The notes under the pieces are model-generated. The model was not told the DNA's origin, did no database searches, and was given only the letters and a program-made list of their open reading frames with translations. A stretch of DNA of 64,000 nucleotides from assembly GCF_000092505.1 (NCBI RefSeq), contig NC_014136.1, positions 1,758,501 through 1,822,500 on the forward strand, written 5' to 3'. This DNA is from Leuconostoc kimchii IMSNU 11154 (GTDB lineage: Bacteria > Bacillota > Bacilli > Lactobacillales > Lactobacillaceae). Positions 4,035-44,687 of this stretch are shown here, piece by piece. The first letter of the stretch is position 1; each line of letters opens with the position of its first letter. A program made the translations under genes and the position numbers.

Positions 4035-4604
4035 ATGAGCTTTGATAAGTCGAATCGCGGACCACGCGAAGGAGATTTCATTACGATCAAAAGTTACAAA
4101 CATGATGGCTCGTTGCATCGAACTTGGCGTGATACCATGGTGCTAAAAACTAGTGAAAATGCGATTATTGGATTAAATGATCATACTTTAGTAACTGAAG
4201 ATGACGGTCGTCGCTGGGTGACCAGGGAGCCTGCTATTGTTTATTTTCATAAAAAGTATTGGTTTAATATTATTGCAATGATACGTGATAATGGGGTTTC
4301 GTACTATTGTAATTTAGCATCACCTTATGTCTTAGACAAAGAGGCGTTAAAATATATAGATTACGATTTAGATGTCAAAGTTTTTCCGGATGGCGAAAAG
4401 CATTTACTTGATGCAGATGAGTATGCTGTTCATAGTAAAAAATGGCATTACCCACCAGAAATCGACCAAATTTTAAAAGCACATGTTAAAATTTTGGTTG
4501 ATTGGATTAATGACGAAACGGGCCCCTTTTCACAAGGTTATATTGATATTTGGTTTGCTAGATATCAGCATTTGATGCAACAACGCCTCAAAGATCGGCG
4601 TTAA
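4035..4604 (+). CDS. DUF402 nucleoside tri/diphosphate phosphatase (YgaC-like)
   Basis: 189 aa with the DUF402 pattern: an N-terminal beta-barrel part ([19 protein letters not shown]), the [11 protein letters not shown] segment, then the acidic set [25 protein letters not shown] and LLDADEY, which supplies metal-binding Asp/Tyr residues in this family. Staphylococcal and bacillary homologues hydrolyse nucleoside tri- and diphosphates; I infer the same here. It follows recX and the small coiled-coil gene but has its own promoter, and is closed by a strong terminator. Confidence 0.82.
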
Positions 4605-4609
4605 TGAAG

Positions 4610-4640
4610 AAAAAGCGCGCAAAGATTTGCGCGCTTTTTT
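4610..4640 (+). terminator. Strong Rho-independent terminator
   Basis: AAAAAGCGCGCAA paired with TTGCGCGCTTTTTT around a short AGAT loop, with a six-T tail. It separates the DUF402 gene from rexB; TAGAAT at about 4651 is a possible -10 box for rexB. Confidence 0.88.
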
Positions 4641-4722
4641 GTGTGATAAAATAGAATAATAGGTGACATAAGAGAAAATACACTAATAGTTATTTAAGGG
4701 TCATTAACGAGAGGGGCATGCT

Positions 4723-7700
4723 ATGGGACTTAAAATTTTTATGAATAATGCACGTACTGACCTACGTGCCAGTTTACTAGAAGATGTGCAAAAAAATCTA
4801 CAACAAACCCCTAATTTGACAGTTTATTATATCGTTCCAAATCACGTTAAATTTGATAGTGAAGTTGATGTTTTAAAACAATTTGCTATTTTGAATGGGA
4901 AAACGTCGAAAAATAAGTTCTATGCACAAAGCCGATTACAAGTCTATTCATTAACGCGTTTAGCGTGGGCATTATTAAAAGATATGCCCGATGCGCAACC
5001 GAATATCATTCAAAATACAGGCTTATTTATTATGGTTTCTGATATTCTACGTGAGTATGCTGCACAATTACCTGTTTTTGCGCGAATGCAGTCTAAAAGT
5101 GGCTTCATTTCAGCATTAGTTAAGCAACTGGTTGAACTACGTGCAAGTCATATTTCACCCCAAGATTTATTACAAATTTTAAATGATGAGAGTCACGATG
5201 ATACTTTTTTACGTCAAACACTTGCTAGTAAGTTACGTGATTTAGCCATCGTATCCGATGCTTTAACACGTAAAATAGGCACTGAACGTATCACACAGCA
5301 AGAGGTGCTACCTTTTTTTGCGACACAATTAGCGGCTACTCAGTTAGAAAATGTTGCTTTTTATTTTGATAATTTTAATGGTTTTACGAGTGCTGAAATG
5401 CAAGTTGTGAGCCAAATTTTGACACATTATCCAACGACAATAGCCTTATTGGGTGACGTCAAAAAATTAGGATATCAGCAGGCAGGTGATGTCTTTAATA
5501 AACCAATGCAAACAGCACAACAGCTCGTTTATTTAACAAAACAAGCTAACCAATCAGTAGAACTCATAGCTGCAACAAAACCAAGGCAGCTTAGTCACAC
5601 TGTAAATCAAGTATTGTCGGCGTGGGAAAATCTAGGAGAGTACCGCGCCTTTAGTGGAGAAGTAGACAAGGTTGAATTACAGGCATTTGCAGCAGAAAAT
5701 ACTGTTGTTGAAATGCAAGAGATTGCACGTCGTGTCCGACGCCTTTTGGTTGAGCAACCGACACTACGATTGCGTGATATTTTAATTTTAGCGCGTGATT
5801 TAACACCTTACACGGCACATATTCCCGAAGTGATGTCACAATTTGATTTACCTTACTTTTTAGACACAGATCAAAAAATGGTGAACCATCCTTTGGTTGA
5901 ATTAATTTTAAACTTACTGGTACCAGCTAAAGACAGATTTCAATATCAAAATGTTATGACGGTTTTAAAAACTAGTTTACTACGACCCTATAATCAGACC
6001 AGTTTAGTTCCTGAAGATGAGTTTTTCGATGTCGTCAGTTATTTTGATAATTATCTGTATGCAAATCGCCCCTATGAGAAAACTTGGCGTAATTTAGAAA
6101 AGCCCTTTGAATTATTCACCGTTGTTGGTCAAATTGATGACGATGATGCAACGATTGTTTCTGACGATGCTATCACAAATCGTCGAATTGAAACACTACG
6201 CCGATTTGTATTGACAGCGTTTGATGCGCTACAAGTTGCGTTGGATCAAGCAAAAACGACACAATTAGCGGCTACTAATTTGGTTACTTGGTTACAAAAT
6301 TTTCATGTTGTTGATGCGATTACAGAGCAACGTGATGCCTTAATTTTAGCTGGTGAACTCACACGATCACGCCAAGGCGAAGAAGTTTGGCAGTTATTGA
6401 CACAAACTTTAGATGAGATTGTTGAAATTAGTGGGAATGAACCGTTTGATTTAAGCGCATTCAAAGATGTTTTATCTACAGGATTCTCAGGTGCTAAATT
6501 TTCAGGTATTCCCAATAACTTAGATCAACTCACAATTTCTGAGGCAGGTATTGTTCAAAATAATCACTATAAACAACTCTTTTTTATTGGTGGGACACGT
6601 TCTAATTTACCAGCACAGGCCAAAACAACTGCTTTAATTAATGACGCTGAAAGACTCATTGTACAACCGGCATTAAAAGAAGCTGGTGTCTCAAAATATT
6701 TGCAAAATACGGCGCAACAACAAATGACGGAAGAAAACTTGTTATTTTATGGTGCACTGGCGGCAACCACAGATAATTTAACTTTGTCATATCCCATGTT
6801 GGAAGCCAGCGGTAAAATTTCAGAAATGTCACCTTTTTTCAAAAGACTAATTGCCACCTTTAATGTTAGTGTGGAAAAGGTAGCAAGTAAGCCACATAAC
6901 GGTGCGGATCTGTTGAAAAGGTATATTGGCACTGCACGGGCAACGCTTTCTGAACTCGTTAAAATTTTACCAACGCAACGAACAACAGCAGCTTTTAAAG
7001 CCATACAAAACACCATTGCAGACACTCAAAGTGACCGATTAACACGTGTTTTGTCAGCGCCAAACTATAAAAATACGTCACAAGTTTTAAAACCAGAATT
7101 TGTGCATGCTTTGTTTGGTGATCAGTTGAATGTTTCTATCTCACAATTAGAAAGTTATTATCGTAATCCATTGGGATACTTTATTCAGTATGGTTTGAAG
7201 TTAAAAGAGCGTGCCACCAATGAATTAGATGTGGCACAAACGGGTACATTATATCATGCAGTTTTGGAAGGTGTTTTGAAAGCGCTCATTAAAGAAAATA
7301 TGAGTTTGCGTGATATAACCACACCTGATTTATTGATATTAGTACAACAAAAGATGACTGAAATAATACAATCTCCTGAATATCAGTTATTGCAGGAGAA
7401 TGGTAAGATGCGTGCAACGCGTGATTATTTACAACGTGTGAGTGCGACGCTTTTGATGAATTTACAACGCTCCGCACGTGTTAATTCAGCTAAACCGAGT
7501 CACGTCGAACAACTATTTGGTTTTCCGAGTCAAGCGTCCTTACCACCGTTAAAGTTTTCGCGTGGGAAGGTTAACGTTCAGGTTCGTGGTAAAATTGACC
7601 GTTTTGATATACAGGATCAAGCACATGTGTTTGGTACGATTATTGATTATAAATCTAGTGGGAAACAATTTGATTGGGGGCAAGCATTTGACGGTTTGCA

Positions 7701-8259
7701 GATGCAACTGCTAACTTATTGGCAAGCGGCACAAATGAATGCTCAACTACTGGGTGTCGAAGCAATTGGTGGGGCGTTTTTTGCACAAATTGCGCCTGAA
7801 AAACAGCTCATTGCAAATTTCAAGGGTGATATAGATGATTTGTTAGCTGGGAACGTCAAACCAGATATATTTAAATATCGCGGATTATTTGTGTCAGAAG
7901 AAGATTATATCGACAGCTTAGATCATTCGGACGACAGTAGGGCTTCACAATTTTATCAATTAAAAAGAAAAAATGATGGCGCGCTTTATGCAAATAGTGA
8001 CTTTGTAGATCCGGAGGACTTCGAATTATTACTGAGTCGTAATCGTGATAATATCAACCGTGCAGGAGAGCACATTTTAGCGGGCTTATTTCCTTTAGAA
8101 CCGACGATAGCGAGTTTGCGTTACACGTCCTTTGCCGATATTTTACGGTTTGATCGTTCCTTGGGAGATACCTATCGGCCAGAAGCGCCCAAAGGGAAAG
8201 CAAATATATTAAAAATTTTGAGGGAGCGTGACGATCATGGCGACACAATTTACGATTAA
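4723..8259 (+). CDS. rexB: ATP-dependent helicase/nuclease subunit B
   Basis: One subunit of the two-subunit AddAB/RexAB enzyme that resects double-strand breaks to start RecA-dependent repair. At 1,178 aa it has the usual RexB length. The C-terminal nuclease domain is intact: [10 protein letters not shown] and [11 protein letters not shown] supply the Asp and Lys of the RecB-type nuclease motif. The N-terminus has no Walker A (GxxGxGKT), and the segment [14 protein letters not shown] has Asn where iron-sulphur AddB proteins carry a Cys. Both are known traits of the Lactobacillales RexB form. The ATG at 4723 has GAGGGG six bases upstream. It overlaps rexA, so the subunits are co-translated. 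Confidence 0.93.
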
Positions 8260-11200
8260 CCAACAGCGTGCGGTTCAGGAGACAGGGCATAACATTTTAG
8301 TTGCCGCCTCTGCTGGTTCAGGGAAAACAACTGTATTGATTGAACGTTTAATTCAAAAAATATTGGCAGGAACTAGTGTTGAAAATTTTCTAATCGTTAC
8401 TTTTACACATGCGGCTGCCAATGAAATGAGAGAGCGACTTGAAATAGCTATTGAAAAACGATTACAGACTGCTGATGAGCATTTAAAACGTTTCTTGCAA
8501 GAACAATTATTGCTATTACCAGCGGCCAATATTTCAACAATTGATGCTTACGCGCTACGTCTGATTGAAAATTACTATCATGTGATTGGCTTGGATCCAC
8601 AGTTTCGCTTGCTATCAGATACCGCGGAACGCGATATGCTTCGTCAGGATGTGCTAAACAATGTATTCTCAGATTTTTATGAAGAAACACACGTGCAACA
8701 TGCCAATTTTTTAGCCTTGGTGACTAATTTTGGTGATCCAACTCATGATGATCAATTACAAAACATTGTTTTAAAGTTAGCTGATTTTGCTGAAGCACGT
8801 CCAGATGGTTCAGCTTGGCTGCAAAGTTTACGTGAAGACGATTTGACGCATGCTAGTGATTTGACGCAGTCAGATATGTACCGTCATGAGATACGGCCTA
8901 TTGTTGAAAGTACGATTAATCAGTTGATGGCCGCTGCCAAAGACATCCAAATATTGACTGATGGCATACCCGAGTTTAAGAAAACGCAAGCCGGATTTTT
9001 GGACATGACAACTTATCTAAGTGGCATTCAAAGTTGTTTAGTTGATGGCAAATGGGATGTTATCCGTGACCAAATCATGCAATCACCTAAGATCAGTATA
9101 GAAACAAAAGCAAGTAAAGGGGTGAAAGAAGAGCCAGAAATGTTGGCGATTTTATCCCAGGCAACCACGGTTAAAAATAAAATTATTGGTTCCAAATCAG
9201 ACATTAAAAAATTGGCAGATACCTTTTTTCGATTCAATGAAAAAAATTGGCTATCAATACAATACGATTCTAATCAACTCACGCAAACACTTATTCTATT
9301 AACACAAACATTTCGGGAAGCATTTACCGAAGCAAAAAGAACAGCCAAATTAGTAGATTTTCCTGATTTAGGGGCATTGGCACTTCAAATTTTAGCAGAC
9401 GAAGCGACACAAAAGACAGTGAGCGGGCAATTTTCAGAAATATTGGTTGACGAGTATCAAGATATTAATCAATTACAAGAAACGTTACTATCTCAAGTAT
9501 CTAATGGTCAAAACATGTATATGGTTGGTGATGTTAAGCAGAGTATTTATGGCTTTAGGCAAGCAGAACCATCATTATTTACACAAAAGTATAAGCGTTT
9601 TGCACAAGGAAACAATGACGATACGCGCATCGAGTTAGCTGATAACTTCCGTTCCCAAAATAATGTCACGCAGGTCACTAATTTAATATTTACGCAGTTA
9701 ATGGATGAAAAACTAGGTGATATTGCTTACTTAGGAGAAGCTAAATTAGTGCCAAAAGCGGCTTATCCAGTGGATGTTCCTGCGGTATTTGATGTTGATG
9801 TGATCACGACAACGTCTTCAGAAAGTCATCAGGATGAGACGGCACAAATGGCTGACGAGCCAACGTTCGAAAAAAGACAGGCACAGTACGCACGACTGGC
9901 TGATAAAATTTTAAAGTTACGTCAAACAACAATCTTTGATCGAAAAAATGATCCAGCAGGCATGCGGCCTGTTGAGTATGCGGATATTGCTATTTTAACA
10001 AGATCAAAGGCTGGGTACATTGATCTTGTTGCTGCCTTGCGACAAGCAGGTATTCCAGTACAAGTTGATTCTGTTGGTAATTACTTTCAAACGATGGAAA
10101 TTTATTTAATGTTAGATGTATTACGCGTTGTTGATAACCCGCATCAAGACGTTCCGCTTGTTGCTGTACTGCGGTCTCCCATGTTTAATTTAACGGAAAA
10201 TGATTTAGCAGCCATTCGCTTGACAGACCAAAAGCATGATTTTTGGACAGCGCTAAAAGAATTTTCAAAAAGTGATGCTCAGGGTAAAGTGATACTGGAT
10301 TTATTTCAAAAATGGCATCTACTTGCAATTCAAAATGATCTAGTCACGCTTATTTGGACAATATTTGATGATACAGCTTGGTTAGACTATGTTGCGGGTA
10401 TGCCCGGTGGGGCACAAAGGCAGGCTAATTTACATGCCTTGTATGATTATGCACGAACATACCAAACTAATAATAATGCTGGTCTATTTAGATTCGTTCG
10501 GTACATTGAACAGTTACAAGATAATGATGGTCAACTTGGAGAAGCACCACAAGAGGCTGATGTGCAGGCCGTACGTATCATGACAATTCACGCATCTAAA
10601 GGCTTGGAATTCCCGATTGTTTTCCTGCCTGAGTTTGATAAAGACTTTAATACGAAAGATTTAACTGGTAACGTTTTAATTCAAAAAGATGCGGGTATTG
10701 GCATGGACTACATGCAACCAGATGCCTTAGTTTCAATGTCTACTTTACAAAAGTTAACTGTGCAGCAAGCATTGAAACGGCAAAGTTGGTCAGAAGAGAT
10801 GCGATTGCTGTATGTTGCTTTAACACGAGCAGAGCAGCAGTTGCATATCATTGGCTCTGTCAAAGTTGATGATGACGGCAAAAGTACGCGACTAACGGAA
10901 CTATGGCAACTAGCAAAAAAAACTAGTGGTCAGTTCTTAGCAGAAGACCTACGCTTATCAGCTAAATCTTATTTAGATTGGTTGGTAATTAGCCTTGCCC
11001 GTACAAAAAATGAGATACTAGAAGGTTGGTTAGGCGATGGTGAGCTACCAAGATTGGTTGGACCAGAAACATTATTAGATGGACAAATAACGATTAATTT
11101 GATAGATGATACGACAATTGAACCAATATTGGATGATATCAGCATTGCTGAAACTGCTCAACCTGAGAATACAGCTTACAGTGTAGATGATTTTACGCAA

Positions 11201-20229: not shown

Positions 20230-20235
20230 TATAAT
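20230..20235 (+). promoter_or_regulatory. -10 box for the riboswitch-permease transcript
   Basis: TATAAT 13 bases before the riboswitch P1 stem, so transcription would start close to the aptamer. No clear -35 is visible. Confidence 0.55.
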
Positions 20236-20247
20236 ATATTAGAAGTA

Positions 20248-20309
20248 TATGATATAGTGTCGGATAATGGCCGACTGTTTCTAGCCAACACCAATGTTGG
20301 ACTATCATA
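20248..20309 (+). promoter_or_regulatory. Purine riboswitch aptamer, guanine/hypoxanthine class
   Basis: P1 TATGATA/TATCATA (20248-20254, 20303-20309); P2 GTCGG/CCGAC with the conserved seven-base L2 ATAATGG; J2/3 containing GTTTCTA; P3 CCAACA/TGTTGG; J3/1 with C at 20302, the base that pairs with guanine or hypoxanthine. L3 is only four bases (CCAA) instead of the usual seven, but keeps the two Cs that would pair with the GG of L2. CTATCAT (20302-20308) can pair with ATGATAG (20333-20339) of the terminator, giving a classical OFF switch: ligand frees the terminator. Confidence 0.9.
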
Positions 20310-20317
20310 AATGTTAG

Positions 20318-20350
20318 ATCTGTCTATCGTTTATGATAGGCGGATTTTTT
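20318..20350 (+). terminator. Riboswitch expression-platform terminator
   Basis: ATCTGTCTATC, GTTTAT loop, GATAGGCGGAT (two G-T pairs), six T residues. Its 3' arm is complementary to the 3' side of riboswitch P1, so the two folds exclude each other. Confidence 0.88.
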
Positions 20351-38807: not shown

Positions 38808-39209
38808 ATGGTACCTAAACGCGGTTTTTTTCAACCATTAGATATAGCAGGACAAATTGGCTGGTTATGGTGGCTAATCTTTCTGATGGCTGGCATAATT
38901 GTATGGGGTGAAATGGCATTTAAAATTGAAATCATTTCAATGGCGTATATTTTAGCGGTATTAGCCTTAGGCGTCGCACTAATTTTACGTCGACGTATTT
39001 ATGTTGCCGGCTCACAATTATTTTTAGGACGCGTCTTTGTGTCAGATTACGAAAAAATCTCTTTGACAGCCATAGAAAATTGGCAATTAAAGGGGCGTGT
39101 CTTGTCATTTACACGTGCTGGGCGTGTACGTAAATATTTGTTGAGTCAAAATATTGCGAATCAGATTAAGGAATATATGAATATCTATGATGGAAAAAAC
39201 AATAATTAA
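38808..39209 (+). CDS. EbsA family membrane protein
   Basis: 133 aa matching EbsA, first described in enterococci next to genes for cell-surface properties and widespread in Lactobacillales before rluD-type genes. It has two membrane helices near residues 18-35 and 42-60, then RRRIYVAGSQLFLGRV and a soluble beta-rich tail. Function is unknown. AGAGG precedes the ATG, and TAAAAT near 38735 is a candidate -10. It overlaps the pseudouridine synthase gene by 23 bases. Confidence 0.83.
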   Translation: MVPKRGFFQPLDIAGQIGWLWWLIFLMAGIIVWGEMAFKIEIISMAYILAVLALGVALILRRRIYVAGSQLFLGRVFVSDYEKISLTAIENWQLKGRVLSFTRAGRVRKYLLSQNIANQIKEYMNIYDGKNNN

Positions 39210-40113
39210 TATTACAACGCAAGTTGGCCGTATTGATGCTATTTTGGCAAAAGAGGACTTACAATACTCAAGGACAACATTAGCGGAATGGTTACAAAAT
39301 GGGCATATTTTGGTTAACAATAATAAAGTAAAACGCTCTTATAAAGTCAGCGTGGGAGACACAATTAGCATTTTTCCGCCTGAAGTGGCTTCAACTGAGA
39401 TTATTGCTGAAGATATACCACTTGATATTGTTTACGAAGATAACGATATTTTAGTGGTTAACAAGCCACAGGGGATGGTAGTTCACCCAGCTGCCGGACA
39501 TTCTTCAGGAACGCTTGTCAATGCTTTACTACATCACGCACCGTTGTCGACAATTAATGGCACGTTTCGGCCGGGAATCGTCCACCGTATTGATCGCGAT
39601 ACAAGTGGCTTATTGATGGTTGCTAAAAACGATGTTGCACACAAAGCCTTGTCTGCACAATTAAAAGCGCATAAAAATGATCGTATTTATTATGCGCTAG
39701 TGCGTGGTGAATTTTCTGAAGATTCAGGTACAATCAACGCACCAATTGGACGTCATCCAGTTGATCGTAAGAGGCAAGCTGTTCAAGTAGGTGGGCGTGA
39801 GGCAATAACACATTTTGAAGTTGTTCATCGCTATGTTGGTTTCACGTTATTAAAGGTGCGTTTAGAAACTGGACGTACACATCAGATTCGCGTGCATTTA
39901 ACCTATATTGGACATCCTATAGTAGGAGATCCGGTTTACGGAAATGCGCAAAAATTAGCTGACGTATCTCTAATGGGACAGTTGTTGCATGCTAAAACAT
40001 TGTCATTAACGCAACCAACAACTGGTGAAGAATTGAGATTTGATAGTTCACTACCAACCTATTTTCAGGAAGCTTTGGCAACACTCACACCGATTAATCA
40101 AACCGATATTTAA
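39187..40113 (+). CDS. RluD-type 23S rRNA pseudouridine synthase
   Basis: Converts specific uridines to pseudouridine in rRNA. The 308-aa protein has an N-terminal S4 domain (GRIDAILAKEDLQYSRTTLAEWLQNGHILVNN) and the catalytic domain with HRIDRDTSGLLMVAK, where the Asp is the nucleophile, plus LETGRTHQIRVHL. RluC/RluD/YlyB subfamilies cannot be separated with confidence. Adjacent ATGs at 39187 and 39190 are both possible; AAGGA lies about 14 bases upstream. Its end is followed by the pyrR region. Confidence 0.92.
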   Translation: MMEKTIINITTQVGRIDAILAKEDLQYSRTTLAEWLQNGHILVNNNKVKRSYKVSVGDTISIFPPEVASTEIIAEDIPLDIVYEDNDILVVNKPQGMVVHPAAGHSSGTLVNALLHHAPLSTINGTFRPGIVHRIDRDTSGLLMVAKNDVAHKALSAQLKAHKNDRIYYALVRGEFSEDSGTINAPIGRHPVDRKRQAVQVGGREAITHFEVVHRYVGFTLLKVRLETGRTHQIRVHLTYIGHPIVGDPVYGNAQKLADVSLMGQLLHAKTLSLTQPTTGEELRFDSSLPTYFQEALATLTPINQTDI

Positions 40114-40158: not shown

Positions 40159-40686
40159 ATGGCAAATAAAGAAGTGCTTGATAATGCATCTCTCCAGCGT
40201 GCATTAACGCGTATTACTTATGAAATTATTGAACGTAACAAGGGGGGCCAAGATTTGGTTCTTGTAGGGATTAAAACTCGTGGTGAGTTTTTAGCTCATC
40301 GTATCGCAAGTAGATTGGAACAACTCGAAGAAGTGAAAATTCCTGTTATGGCAATTGATATTACAAATTTCCGCGATGATGTTTTAAATCATGATGATAG
40401 CCTAGGATTAAATGATGAAGAGAGAACGAATATTGCTGATAAAAACATCGTACTAATTGATGATGTTTTATTTACTGGCCGTACGATTCGTGCAGCGTTG
40501 GATGCCTTGATTCATATTGGCCGTCCAAAAACAATTTCTTTAGCGGTTTTGGTTGATCGTGGGCATCGAGAACTGCCAATCCGTGCAGATTTTGTTGGTA
40601 AAAATATTCCAACAGCTCAAAACGAAAAAATTAAAGTTTTCGTTCAAGAAATTGATGGCCGTGATGCGGTTGAAATTGTACACTGA
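40159..40686 (+). CDS. pyrR: PyrR, pyrimidine attenuation regulator / uracil phosphoribosyltransferase
   Basis: RNA-binding regulator of pyr genes that also has UPRTase activity. 175 aa with [31 protein letters not shown], the PRPP motif [19 protein letters not shown] and [19 protein letters not shown]. All main motifs are intact; Tyr stands where B. subtilis has the RNA-contacting His22. The only usable start, ATG 40159, has no ribosome-binding site. A strong one (GGAAGGAG) lies 30 bases earlier in front of ATGTGA, a start-stop. I found no PyrR-binding attenuator before it or before the next gene. Next genes are degenerate carA and carB. Confidence 0.9.
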
Positions 40687-40745
40687 TAGGAGACTGTGCG
40701 TCTTATTTAGTTGATTTAGATAAAGAGTCGTACATATTAAAAAAC

Positions 40746-41828
40746 ATGATGAAACGTCACTTAATCCTTGAAGATGGTACGATATTTCAAGGCCTTGGTT
40801 TTGGTTCGCCAGCAACTACATTTGGAGAAATTATTTTTCATACAGCCATGACTGGCTATCAAGAAATCATTACTGATCCTATTTATGATGGGCAGATGAT
40901 TGTTTTTGCGATGCCGGTTATTGGTGCTGCCGGCATTCATGCGGAGGCATATGAATCAGTAAAACCAACGATTAGCGGCATGATTGTTCATGACTTAGCT
41001 GAAGTCTCTGTCAATCGTCAACGTCGTATGAATTTGGATCGATTTTTAAAACAGCATAATATTCCAGGCCTATACCAAGTAGATACTCGGCAACTCATTC
41101 GTCATTTACGTGAAACAGGGCCACAAAAGGCAACAATCGTTGACTATGCAGATGAGCACGCTGTAGACCAATTAGTGGCAACTGTTTTAACTAATAAGCA
41201 GGTTCAAAATACAGCGACCCCAAAAGCATATGCTAACCCTGGTAGAGGTCGTCATATTGTTGTCATTGATTTTGGACTAAAACACGGTATTTTACGCATG
41301 TTAGGTGATTATGATGCCAATGTATCGGTATTGCCTTACACGACTAGTGTAGAAGAAGTTTTAACTTTAGACCCTGACGGTATTATTTTATCTACGGGAC
41401 CAGGCGATCCTAGAACATTACCAGAAAGCGTTTTGACGTTGATAAGAGTGTTACAGTCAAAAGTACCAATGTTAGGAATTGGTTTAGGTCATGAGTTATT
41501 TGCTTTGGCAAATGGCGCAGAACTTAAACCATTACCGTCAGAACATCATGGTATGAACCATCCGATTCAAGAAATCATTTCTCGTCAAATATTTTATGCC
41601 ATGCAAGGTCAGGGCTATGCTGTAGATGAGGGGACCATTAACCGAAAGAAGCTATTTGTGACCTATCGTGATTTGGTGGATGGTGCTGTTCAAGGGTTGC
41701 GGCATCGTGAATTTCCAGCGTTTAGTGTCCAATTTTTTCCAGATGCGGCACCGGGCCCACTTGAAGCAACGGCTGTATTTGCTGATTTTTTTGAAACGGT
41801 AGAAGATTATGTCGAACAGTACAATTAA
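40746..41828 (+). CDS. carA: Degenerate carbamoyl-phosphate synthase small subunit (glutaminase-dead CarA)
   Basis: 360 aa, full CarA length and layout: N-terminal domain with EIIFHTAMTGYQEIITDP and LYQVDTRQLIRHLRE, then a class I glutaminase fold with DFGLKHGILRML, LSTGPGDP and HHGMNHP. The active site is gone: the nucleophile Cys is Gly246 (GIGLGHE instead of GICLGHQ), the His is Phe331 and the Glu is Asp333 (QFFPDA instead of QYHPEA). It therefore cannot release ammonia from glutamine. There is no ribosome-binding site; TTGATT/CATATT lie suitably before the ATG for a leaderless start. It overlaps the carB-like gene by 20 bases. A regulatory or structural role is my inference. Confidence 0.85.
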   Translation: MMKRHLILEDGTIFQGLGFGSPATTFGEIIFHTAMTGYQEIITDPIYDGQMIVFAMPVIGAAGIHAEAYESVKPTISGMIVHDLAEVSVNRQRRMNLDRFLKQHNIPGLYQVDTRQLIRHLRETGPQKATIVDYADEHAVDQLVATVLTNKQVQNTATPKAYANPGRGRHIVVIDFGLKHGILRMLGDYDANVSVLPYTTSVEEVLTLDPDGIILSTGPGDPRTLPESVLTLIRVLQSKVPMLGIGLGHELFALANGAELKPLPSEHHGMNHPIQEIISRQIFYAMQGQGYAVDEGTINRKKLFVTYRDLVDGAVQGLRHREFPAFSVQFFPDAAPGPLEATAVFADFFETVEDYVEQYN

Positions 41829-44322
41829 CAAAGAAATTAAAAAAGTTTTATTTATAGGTGCAGGGTCTAATGACTTTGGACGTGAAGCTGAGCATGATGC
41901 TGCTATTTATCAGGTCATGCCTGAATTACGTGGTCATGGTGTCGAGGTTTTTGTGATTGATGAAAATCCCTATGCTTTATCTCTTGAAAGCCTAGCGGCG
42001 ACAACGTTTTGGCAGCAACTGACCGTTGAAAATATCAAGAACATTATTCGAGAACATCAAATTGATACGGTTGCGCCACTATTTGGTGGACAATCATCAT
42101 TGAGATTATGGGCAGAAGTGGTACAGAGCTGGACGCATGGTGATGGTACAGTGCCACACACATTGGGATTAACCATTGATATGCTGCTCAAAGTGAACAA
42201 TTTACCTGCAATGACAGCATTTATGTCAGATCATGGGCTGCCTGTTATTAATAATTATGTAGTAAAAGCTCAAGATGAGGCTAATGAATTATTACGAGAA
42301 CTACAATTACCATTGATGGTTCGTGCTTTACATCCGAAGCAAACAAATACGCGTCATGTGGTAGAGCGTTTGGATGATTTTGAAGAGGCAATTAATCTGG
42401 CAAAAGTTCAGTCTGTGACACAAGAAGTTATTATTTCACGAGCAATTAACGGTCTAAAAGAAGTTAGTTTAGAGGTGTTACGTGATTTTCGTGGCAATAA
42501 AATGCAAATTGGGGCTAGTGAAGATATGGACCCTATTGGTATTCATACGTCAGATTCGTTGAGCGTATCGCCGATTTTAACAATTCAAGATCAACTTATT
42601 GGTAAAATGCGCGATTATGCCTTTAGAGTAGCAGATATGATACGGCTACAAGGTATTATGCATGTGCAATTTGCAGTTGACGATGAGACGCGTAGAATTT
42701 ATATCATTAAGGTGTCGCCTTACATTGATCAAATGGCCACACGAATGGCACTTGCGACAGGTTATCCAACAATGCTTGTGGCGGTTAATTTAGCCATGGG
42801 CATTGCATTAGAAGATATTGTATTACCGCATAATTTTGGTATTAACGCTGCGATGATGGAACCGATGATGGATCATGTTGTTGTGAAATTGCCAGTATTC
42901 CCGTTTGGTGAATTAGCAGAAGCAGGTGTGTCAGTTAAAAGGCAACTTAATAGTGTTCAGAAATCTATTGGTACCACACTTGGCTTTGGTCGGACGTTTA
43001 TTGAATCATTAGAAAAAGCTATCAGATCAGCGCACTTCAATAATGCTAGTTTTTCACCGACGAATATGGCTAATATTAATGATGATGAACTCATACAACA
43101 ACTTATTCATCCACAAGATAATCGTGTTTTGTTACTCATTGAAGCAATTAGACGTGGTTATGAGATAGATGAGCTTGCTGAATTGACCGCTATTGACGAA
43201 TTTTATTTTTATCAATTAAAACATTTGCATACACTTGAAGTTGAAATTGAAGCGGATACAGATAATATTCAGTCTTTGAGGCGTGGTAAGCGATATGGTT
43301 TATCAGATGGTTTATTGGCTCGATTTTGGCATACGGATTTTAATATCATTCGTACATTAGCAAAAGAAAATAATATTAGCGTTTCTTACAAGGCAGTGGA
43401 ACCCTCGGCTGGTGAATTTCCAGAAAATGCGCGTCAATACTATGCAACATATGAAACAGAAAATGAGTCCGTCCAAATTCATGAAAATGCCGTATTAGTC
43501 ATTGGATCAGGTGCTTTTCGTATGGGGGATGCAGCATCGGGCGGTTATGCGACAACGATAACTTTGTCTGAATTACGGCGTCTACAGTATCCAACTATTA
43601 TTATGAATAATAATCCAAGTGATGCAACCTTGTTACCACACTTGGCAGATAAACAATATCTTGAGCCACTTGAAATTTCAGATGTTATGCGCGTGGTGGA
43701 ACTCGAAAAACCACAGTTTATTGTTATTCCAGGTAATCGACGAAAGTTGATAAAAGCTTTGCGTAACTTGGGGCAGCGTGTGGTTATCCTACCAAAAGAA
43801 CGGCATACCCCCAATGGGCCCAATGAAAATCAGTCAGAGTTTGCTTTGAATTTTTTTTATGATGGGCATGATAGTTATCCAATAAATGTGACCCAACATA
43901 TGGCAGGTGAGATGCGTATCATTCCTCAAATCGCCAAAATGCCAGATGATCACTTGGCAACACATATTGATAATCCAGGTGTATATCAAGTGATTTGGCA
44001 TCAGAATACGATACATTGGAAAGAACATGTTGATATATCAAATATTGGACATGATACGTGGTTGCGGCCAATGCCGTTTGGTCAGGTAGCGTATTTAACA
44101 AAAGCCATGCAGATTCAATGGATTCGTCTCACTATCAGAGCAGCGATTGAGGAGATGACTGAGGAGGACCACGTGATATTATCCACAGTTAATGCGCGTT
44201 TAATGACGGATCAATTAGGCATGATAGCTTCTGATGTCAATTATCGTTTGCATCTACAGCCGAATAAAGTGATAGATGGGACAAGATTTGAAATAGGTGT
44301 GAGTGTGCAACGCTATGGGTGA
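41809..44322 (+). CDS. carB: Degenerate, shortened carbamoyl-phosphate synthase large subunit (CarB-like pseudoenzyme)
   Basis: 837 aa against about 1,060-1,070 for true CarB. The first half aligns along its length (PLFGGQSSLR, DPIGIHTSDS, LATGYP, FGRTFIESLEKAIRS). The ATP-grasp Gly loop has become HPKQTNT (about 175-181), and the metal/ATP triad ExNxR is KVSPY (301-305). The oligomerisation part is kept (YKAVEPSAGEFPENARQYYATYE). The second half begins normally (VLVIGSGAFRMG, IIMNNNPSDATLLPHLADKQYLEPL) but only about 285 residues remain instead of about 520, so most of the second ATP-grasp and the allosteric domain are missing. No frameshift or stop is seen. Catalysis is very unlikely. Confidence 0.85.
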   Translation: MSNSTINKEIKKVLFIGAGSNDFGREAEHDAAIYQVMPELRGHGVEVFVIDENPYALSLESLAATTFWQQLTVENIKNIIREHQIDTVAPLFGGQSSLRLWAEVVQSWTHGDGTVPHTLGLTIDMLLKVNNLPAMTAFMSDHGLPVINNYVVKAQDEANELLRELQLPLMVRALHPKQTNTRHVVERLDDFEEAINLAKVQSVTQEVIISRAINGLKEVSLEVLRDFRGNKMQIGASEDMDPIGIHTSDSLSVSPILTIQDQLIGKMRDYAFRVADMIRLQGIMHVQFAVDDETRRIYIIKVSPYIDQMATRMALATGYPTMLVAVNLAMGIALEDIVLPHNFGINAAMMEPMMDHVVVKLPVFPFGELAEAGVSVKRQLNSVQKSIGTTLGFGRTFIESLEKAIRSAHFNNASFSPTNMANINDDELIQQLIHPQDNRVLLLIEAIRRGYEIDELAELTAIDEFYFYQLKHLHTLEVEIEADTDNIQSLRRGKRYGLSDGLLARFWHTDFNIIRTLAKENNISVSYKAVEPSAGEFPENARQYYATYETENESVQIHENAVLVIGSGAFRMGDAASGGYATTITLSELRRLQYPTIIMNNNPSDATLLPHLADKQYLEPLEISDVMRVVELEKPQFIVIPGNRRKLIKALRNLGQRVVILPKERHTPNGPNENQSEFALNFFYDGHDSYPINVTQHMAGEMRIIPQIAKMPDDHLATHIDNPGVYQVIWHQNTIHWKEHVDISNIGHDTWLRPMPFGQVAYLTKAMQIQWIRLTIRAAIEEMTEEDHVILSTVNARLMTDQLGMIASDVNYRLHLQPNKVIDGTRFEIGVSVQRYG

Positions 44323-44608
44323 TAGTAAAAAATATACTGTACATGTTTTTACTGGTGTTACCCTGAATCAAGATGCTTCTGGACAATACGTTCCTCGTGC
44401 TGAATCGATGCCTCATATTTGGCGAACCGGAAAACATACAAAAGGCCAATTCAAAAAGATTGGTCAAATATTTATAACAGAAACAGGTCAAGCAGTTGCC
44501 GTGATAGGGGTTGAAAAGTTGAAATTTAGCCAACGGCATGATTTTGTTCCCTTGCAACGTTGGACAAATTTGTATGTTGAGCAGACAAAATTGCAACTAT
44601 GGTTATAG
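44315..44608 (+). CDS. 97-aa protein of unknown function overlapping the carB-like gene
   Basis: Begins MGDSKKYTVHVFTGVTLNQD and ends YVEQTKLQLWL. ATG 44315 overlaps the carB-like stop by 8 bases; a GTG at 44303 is a less likely start. It contains GKHTKGQFKKIGQIF and a basic, aromatic, beta-rich composition without Cys, signal peptide or membrane helix. I do not recognise the family. It ends before a bidirectional terminator, so it is the last gene of the pyrR-carA-carB unit and probably works with it. Confidence 0.7.
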   Translation: MGDSKKYTVHVFTGVTLNQDASGQYVPRAESMPHIWRTGKHTKGQFKKIGQIFITETGQAVAVIGVEKLKFSQRHDFVPLQRWTNLYVEQTKLQLWL

Positions 44609-44647: not shown

Positions 44648-44687
44648 AATAAAAGGCCAAGTATCTGTGCATACTTGGTCTTTTATT
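44648..44687. terminator. Bidirectional terminator between the carB-like unit and the MFS gene
   Basis: About 17-bp stem around AAAAGGCCAAGTAT / ATACTTGGTCTTTT (one G-T), six-base loop, A and T tracts on both sides. Confidence 0.92.

Follow-up and report, generated by a model that had tools for sequence, protein, structure and literature searches.

In a 64,000-nt stretch of the Leuconostoc kimchii IMSNU 11154 genome (NC_014136.1, positions 1,758,501 to 1,822,500; hereafter the window, whose own numbering we use), the pyrimidine attenuation gene pyrR is followed by carA* and carB*, which encode recognisable small and large subunits of carbamoyl-phosphate synthase (CPS) that have lost their catalytic residues. 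We found that carA*B* is a pseudoenzyme pair under strong purifying selection rather than a decaying one in the genera tested, and that the dead pair is nearly always kept with a PyrR. Here, a central metabolic enzyme complex is devoid of catalytic residues yet under strong selection, and it outlasts the pathway from which it came. The explanation we prefer, at roughly even odds, is that the pseudo-CPS complex would bind a ligand and tune PyrR. An earlier note, made from the sequence alone, had proposed a retained pseudoenzyme module at this locus, and this proposal was supported by synteny across the family, purifying selection, a live CarAB in the same genome and more than one origin.

The loss of catalytic residues was assessed by alignment with the solved E. 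coli CPS and across a core set of 119 CarA* and 118 CarB* sequences, comprising the window, 38 unnamed loci and 80 (CarA*) or 79 (CarB*) named loci, some of them from the same species. In the window, Cys269 and His353 of the glutaminase triad are replaced by Gly246 and Phe331, as the note had reported; position 269 is Gly in 119/119 CarA*, His353 is retained in 0/119, and Gln273 is Glu in 115/119. A third change counted there as a catalytic loss, Glu355 to Asp (Asp333), was dropped as a sign of inactivity, since the active CarA of the window genome and 16 of 18 intact CarA from the wider order also have Asp. The Gly loop, Glu299, Asn301 and Arg303 form the ATP/Mg site of the N-terminal half (N-half) of CPS. 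This loop is lost in the window CarB*, and the three residues have become Lys, Ser and Tyr, in line with the earlier reading; among the 118 CarB* sequences, position 299 is Lys in 113, Arg in five and Glu in none, and Arg303 is kept in 0/118. Judged from these alignments, losses of such uniformity (119/119, 118/118) are far beyond chance.

CarB* consists of an N-half ATP-grasp region lacking the Gly loop and metal ligands, an oligomerisation domain and a remnant of the C-terminal half (C-half), which is shortened and devoid of its motifs; no residues align at the allosteric-domain motif and this domain is absent. At 837 aa, it falls 232 aa short of the live CarB (1069 aa) that this genome also encodes, close to the deficit of about 230 aa noted before. 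Glu215 (110/118), His243 (114/118) and a basic residue at position 169 (118/118) are retained and may leave a binding pocket, while the N-site otherwise varies much across the core set. An AlphaFold2 model of CarB* (40 sequences, mean pLDDT 78, pTM 0.82) matched E. coli CarB with a TM score of 0.82 by query and an rmsd of 5.7 across an alignment of 940 columns that includes gaps, so that the structural comparison suggested earlier supported a preserved fold. Because the CarA* model was of low quality (pLDDT 69.7, pTM 0.56), little was built on it, although its best structural matches were CarA chains (381 columns aligned). The pair thus shares sequence relationship, domain order and fold with E. 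coli CarAB (PDB 1jdb/1a9x), but not the triad Cys and His, the Gly loop, the metal ligands, the allosteric domain or a full-length C-half. Pfam and NCBIfam assign the proteins to PyrR, to the CPSase small chain with class-I glutamine amidotransferase (GATase), and to the CPSase large chain. CarA* scored 365.6 bits against NCBIfam TIGR01368 and passed the small-subunit cut-off of 307.35, so score-based annotation would label it an enzyme, which may distort counts of CPS genes and models of the pathway in lactobacilli; CarB* fell below the large-subunit cut-off (417.7 bits against 1027 for TIGR01369).

Ammonia-dependent CPS I, such as human CPS1, has no catalytic Cys but keeps both ATP sites. 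CarA* resembles it in that its GATase domain also lacks the Cys nucleophile, whereas both ATP sites are destroyed in the window pair. Since an ammonia-dependent CPS needs two intact ATP sites, we rejected this activity for the window pair, as the note had argued.

Searching the window genome for a second, canonical carAB revealed an intact pyr operon, pyrB-pyrC-carA-carB-pyrD-pyrF-pyrE, with the 1069-aa CarB and a CarA carrying the motif GICLGHQ; its gene names were assigned from order and sequence, and that of pyrB via a Pfam-type match of a relative. A PyrR leader precedes the live pyrB; it scored 52.9 bits with E=1.3e-6, slightly short of the gathering score (54), and a search of the genome gave E=1.6e-6. 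No PyrR other than that encoded next to carA* was found in this genome (next match E=4e-4); this PyrR carries the phosphoribosyl pyrophosphate (PRPP) motif DDVLFTGRT. Given a leader on the live operon and a single PyrR, the window PyrR most likely controls that operon from afar.

To distinguish constraint from decay, the ratio of nonsynonymous to synonymous substitution rates (dN/dS) was calculated by the Nei-Gojobori method using pairs with dS under 1.5, many pairs being saturated. In the window's genus, median dN/dS was 0.028 for CarA* (8 pairs) and 0.032 for CarB* (3 pairs), compared with 0.046 for live CarA (8 pairs) and 0.048 for live CarB (6 pairs); values of about 0.03 are far from the value near 1 that the note had named as the mark of ordinary decay. 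The dead small subunit even evolves more slowly than its living paralogue in this genus (median dN 0.047 in 7 genomes vs 0.098 in 8). Similar constraint was found in Lactiplantibacillus (CarA* 0.011, 15 pairs; CarB* 0.009, 1 pair) and in Levilactobacillus (CarA* 0.022, 106 pairs; CarB* 0.023, 24 pairs), the latter represented by 22 named species whose PyrB status was not checked species by species.

Of the 201 genomes sampled from the family, at least 109 (a hand count, hence a lower bound), from 21 of 40 genera, have a short dead carB*, mostly an open frame of 820–901 aa; an internal stop interrupts 3 of these carB* sequences. Once longer CarB forms were counted, CarA with Cys replaced by Gly occurred in 32 of the 40 genera, 11 of which rest on one genome each: g4, g9 and g35 with a short CarB, g15, g37 and g40 with a CarB of 1054–1067 aa, and g11, g17, g21, g22 and g27 with a CarB of 643–1067 aa. 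The g37 genome additionally has two pyrR genes flanking a pyrB-pyrC-carA-carB block (L267). A claim that nine more genera lack the dead pair proved wrong for several of them, as a CarA search in 12 further genomes identified five with the Cys-to-Gly change (G010, G017, G021, G022, G027), one with His replaced by Leu (G033) and six with intact CarA only, one each from g12, g13, g25, g29, g30 and g31. All of these six genera except g29 have PyrR beside rluD, and in g25 (L358) and g31 (L357) that site holds a complete, intact pyr operon. The rluD site is therefore occupied either by the dead pair or by a working pyr operon.

A scan of named genomes returned 259 relatives, and the best 80 of these 259 included Lactiplantibacillus, Levilactobacillus, Secundilactobacillus, Lentilactobacillus, Furfurilactobacillus, Paucilactobacillus, Apilactobacillus, Periweissella, Philodulcilactobacillus and others. 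In the 38 loci fetched from sampled genomes and these 80 named loci, which share some species, rluD lies on the upstream side in 37/38 and 79/80, and pyrR stands between rluD and carA* in 32/38 and 78/80, two loci (L151, L186) being cut by contig ends. The pyrR-carA*-carB* cluster that the note had described is accordingly widespread, whereas the 97-aa ORF (open reading frame) it had included, a DUF7671 gene, is present in only 8 of the 38 loci; we dropped it as a core part of the module and regard it as an accessory gene.

PyrR was present in all of the at least 109 genomes with a short carB*. Nineteen of them had no PyrB match better than E=1e-20, and in 17 of these 19 carB* was the single CarB match, a call based on one match per genome that includes G013, with one candidate unscored, and G060, whose carB* has an internal stop. 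carA* was present in all 6 of the 17 genomes whose locus was fetched. In Levilactobacillus (g16, genus name inferred), 6 of 7 sampled genomes lack PyrB. Since the pair is kept without PyrB and without another CarB match, carA*B* does not merely modulate an active CPS and serves something that outlives both pyrimidine synthesis and active CPS; most likely, PyrR is the shared element. Conversely, seven genomes of genus g29 lack PyrR and showed no carB* among the matches listed, with two intact CarA in G029, which is weak evidence, as it comes from one lineage.

We further searched genomes without PyrB for PyrR leaders, and found them at E≤0.01 in 13 of the 15 searched, 7 of the 15 exceeding the gathering score. 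Some leaders stand directly before xanthine/uracil-type permeases or a nucleoside deoxyribosyltransferase, where the next ORF was assumed to be the gene behind a leader, with a Pfam check for some and with minus-strand ORFs open to error. In five g16 loci (L299, L301, L305, L308, L310) the leader precedes a nucleoside 2-deoxyribosyltransferase-like gene, confirmed by Pfam for L299 only, which is possibly an uncommon PyrR target.

A paper listing two CPS hinted that Lactiplantibacillus plantarum might be without the cluster; the hint was wrong, as strain EGD-AQ4 has rluD-pyrR-carA*-carB* (L122). This strain has two true PyrR proteins, 66% identical over the match, one beside carA*B* and one in the pyr operon (L265), so the PyrR beside carA*B* is PyrR2 by exclusion. 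Deletion of pyrR2 in L. plantarum reportedly made the bacterium require high CO2. Upstream of pyrR2, the spacer looks like a PyrR leader but scores only 26.4 bits (E=0.08), well below the gathering score. In the excerpts available, PyrR2 is described as an inorganic-carbon regulator of the pyr genes in L. plantarum (Arsene-Ploetze 2006, as related in PMC3582564), pyrR2 of strain WCFS1 is lp_1782 (PMC7911632), and neither these accounts of PyrR2 regulation mention an adjacent dead CarAB nor does the excerpted L. reuteri network paper say which copy of carA it names. The dead pair is a concrete candidate beside PyrR2, whose inorganic-carbon response has no sensor named in these excerpts. The link to PyrR suggested in the note is plausible in view of the PyrR in every genome with a short carB* and of the PyrR2 neighbour in L. 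plantarum, but one genome, discussed below, has a dead pair and no PyrR was found in it.

To trace the origin of the pair, we compared 24 loci from the order but outside the family (L275-L298), in 15 of which rluD and pyrR precede pyr or car genes. In other families (L275, L277, L279, L280, L288), as in the two genera of the family given above, rluD-pyrR is followed by intact pyr genes. The CarA motif columns were intact in 21 of the 24 loci and dead in three. Two of these (L278, L281; genus g49, family f2) have a full-length CarB and a dead pair inside a pyr operon in which pyrC, pyrD and pyrF remain, pyrB being listed in L278 only; the third (L294, positions 4177-8357; genome G211, family f4) has pyrR, an SDR-like gene, a Cys-to-Gly carA* and a 579-aa carB*. 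In the CarA tree, the g49 dead pair nests among live f2 sequences and L294 forms a long branch of unsure placement. A single clade, and hence a single origin, for all dead CarA was rejected by the approximately unbiased (AU) test (p=0.009), for which the group was chosen after the first tree had been seen, and whose tree held part of the CarA* sequences, left out the long sequences L266, L268, L272 and L294 and did not include L351-L356. On this tree, dead CarA beside pyrR arose at least twice. A genome search found no CPS-type CarB besides the dead one in G209, G243 and G211, so if the pathway runs there, carbamoyl phosphate would have to come from another source.

Half-way forms were found at the rluD-pyrR site. 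G021 (L354) has a dead CarA and a CarB that has lost the C-half motifs, with intact N-half ATP motifs (Gly loop, EVNPR); G010 (L352) keeps the Gly loop and has Glu299 replaced by Ala; and G022 (L353) has a 643-aa CarB that is N-half only. In G033 (g33, L356), the sole CarA match keeps Cys, has His replaced by Leu and adjoins a degenerate full-length carB. What all forms seen have in common is the loss of the glutaminase and the retention of the N-terminal half of CarB. The N-half of live CPS CarB activates bicarbonate with ATP, and its retention is compatible with a bicarbonate-sensing role.

Together, these observations suggest a sequence of steps. An ancestral pyr operon would have stood behind rluD as rluD-pyrR-pyrBC-carAB, a layout that is still observed. 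In much of the Lactobacillaceae, carAB would have stayed at this site, losing the glutaminase first and the ATP sites next, with the working set, if any, elsewhere; the losses themselves and the selection are seen in the sequences, while their order is our proposal. The two proteins could then assemble into a complex that binds a small ligand (nucleotide, bicarbonate and carbamoyl phosphate are candidates) in the remains of the old pockets, chiefly in the N-terminal half, and that may pass the ligand state to PyrR through contact, altering attenuation at pyr and base-uptake genes. A bolder form, which we advance tentatively and regard as rather doubtful, is that a dead CPS controlling PyrR senses inorganic carbon or a nucleotide in much of the family, supplies the sensor so far lacking for the response that L. 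plantarum makes to CO2 through PyrR2, was built from the bicarbonate-activating half and evolved at least twice in Lactobacillales. Bacterial pseudokinases and antizyme inhibitor, as far as the excerpts describe them, offer parallels in which the fold is kept, the chemistry is lost and a regulatory role results. No description of a dead CPS beside PyrR, or of any CPS-type pseudoenzyme complex, was found in titles and the opening parts of abstracts, most subscription papers lying outside this search.

Several observations weigh against a role in tuning PyrR. pyrR is gone from the rluD-carA* interval in 6/38 and 2/80 loci, although PyrR is elsewhere in the genome for all six of the former. G017 (87% complete) has rluD-carA*-carB* with a dead 1056-aa CarB and no PyrR found; this exception and the state of G021 pull in opposite ways. 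In five genera, one genome each, PyrR occupies the rluD site and no CarA other than an intact one was found, which indicates that PyrR can work without the dead pair. Two genomes with carB* and PyrR (G041, G194) had no PyrR leader at E≤0.01 in the search, and the proximity of the pair to pyrR is in part a legacy of the old operon. Furthermore, CarB* evolves faster than live CarB (median dN 0.181 vs 0.081).

Among the other explanations, a scaffold or moonlighting protein unrelated to PyrR, such as one connected with rluD or translation, is rather unlikely in our judgement. rluD is the most constant neighbour, carA*B* stays in the 8 of 118 loci where pyrR is missing, and the G017 pair adjoins rluD; however, the rluD link is inherited, because rluD also adjoins the ordinary pyr operon, and the dead pairs of g49 and G211 lie inside a pyr operon and one gene from pyrR, respectively. 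We also consider it improbable that CarA* or CarB* acts as a decoy, pairing with a live CarB or CarA and tuning carbamoyl-phosphate synthesis directly. The shared fold with E. coli CPS and the live CarAB of the window genome would allow such pairing, but the 17 genomes described above keep carB* with neither another CarB match nor PyrB, selection is still strong in Levilactobacillus, and G209, G243 and G211 yielded no CPS-type CarB apart from the dead one. The same 17 genomes speak against inhibition of CPS as a general role, which the note had listed beside sensor and scaffold.

A new enzyme, in which remodelled pockets would perform other chemistry without glutamine and in which Lys/Arg for Glu299 and Glu for Gln273 would be new functional residues, has a similarly small chance of being correct. 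The replacements are fixed rather than random (Lys/Arg299 in 118/118, Gly269 in 119/119, Glu273 in 115/119), and the N-half ATP motifs are intact in L354; nevertheless, the core set has no metal ligands, phosphate loop or nucleophile, its N-site is largely variable and its C-half is shortened. It is scarcely credible that the pair is a relic in decay, left over from the duplication of a pyr operon. The loss of catalytic residues and about 230 aa, the internal stops and the varied states of loss would fit decay, but dN/dS of 0.02-0.03, key changes shared by every core sequence (119 CarA*, 118 CarB*) and open frames across 21 genera refute it for the genera tested.

At the locus itself, pyrR, carA*, carB* and the DUF7671 ORF form a tight run on the plus strand with all frames open (Table 1). 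The ORF coordinates confirmed the overlaps given in the earlier note, 20 bases between carA* and carB* and 8 bases between carB* and the DUF7671 ORF when read from its ATG. Terminator-like sites, including the hairpin behind this run, were no more frequent in the scan than in shuffled sequences, within about one standard deviation.

Table 1 Features of the carA*B* locus in window coordinates
Feature	Position	Strand	Length	Basis
RluD pseudouridine synthase; constant neighbour on the upstream side, marking the pyr operon site	39187..40113	+		Pfam; neighbour conservation
PyrR (pyr attenuation protein / uracil phosphoribosyltransferase)	40159..40686	+	175 aa	NCBIfam NF003548, 258.9 bits (cut-off 218)
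CarA*, dead glutaminase subunit of carbamoyl-phosphate synthase	40746..41828	+	360 aa	Pfam PF00988 and PF00117; alignments (Cys to Gly246, His to Phe331)
CarB*, dead shortened large subunit	41809..44322	+	837 aa	Pfam PF25596, PF02786, PF02787; alignments; AlphaFold2 model
DUF7671 protein	44303..44608	+	101 aa from GTG 44303; 97 aa from first ATG 44315	PF24710, E=6.8e-36
Terminator-like hairpin between the carA*B* run and a convergent MFS-like gene	44657..44678	listed on −; T-rich on + side too		Consensus match only

Elsewhere in the window, a purine riboswitch (RF00167, 47.6 bits) was detected at 20230-20324.

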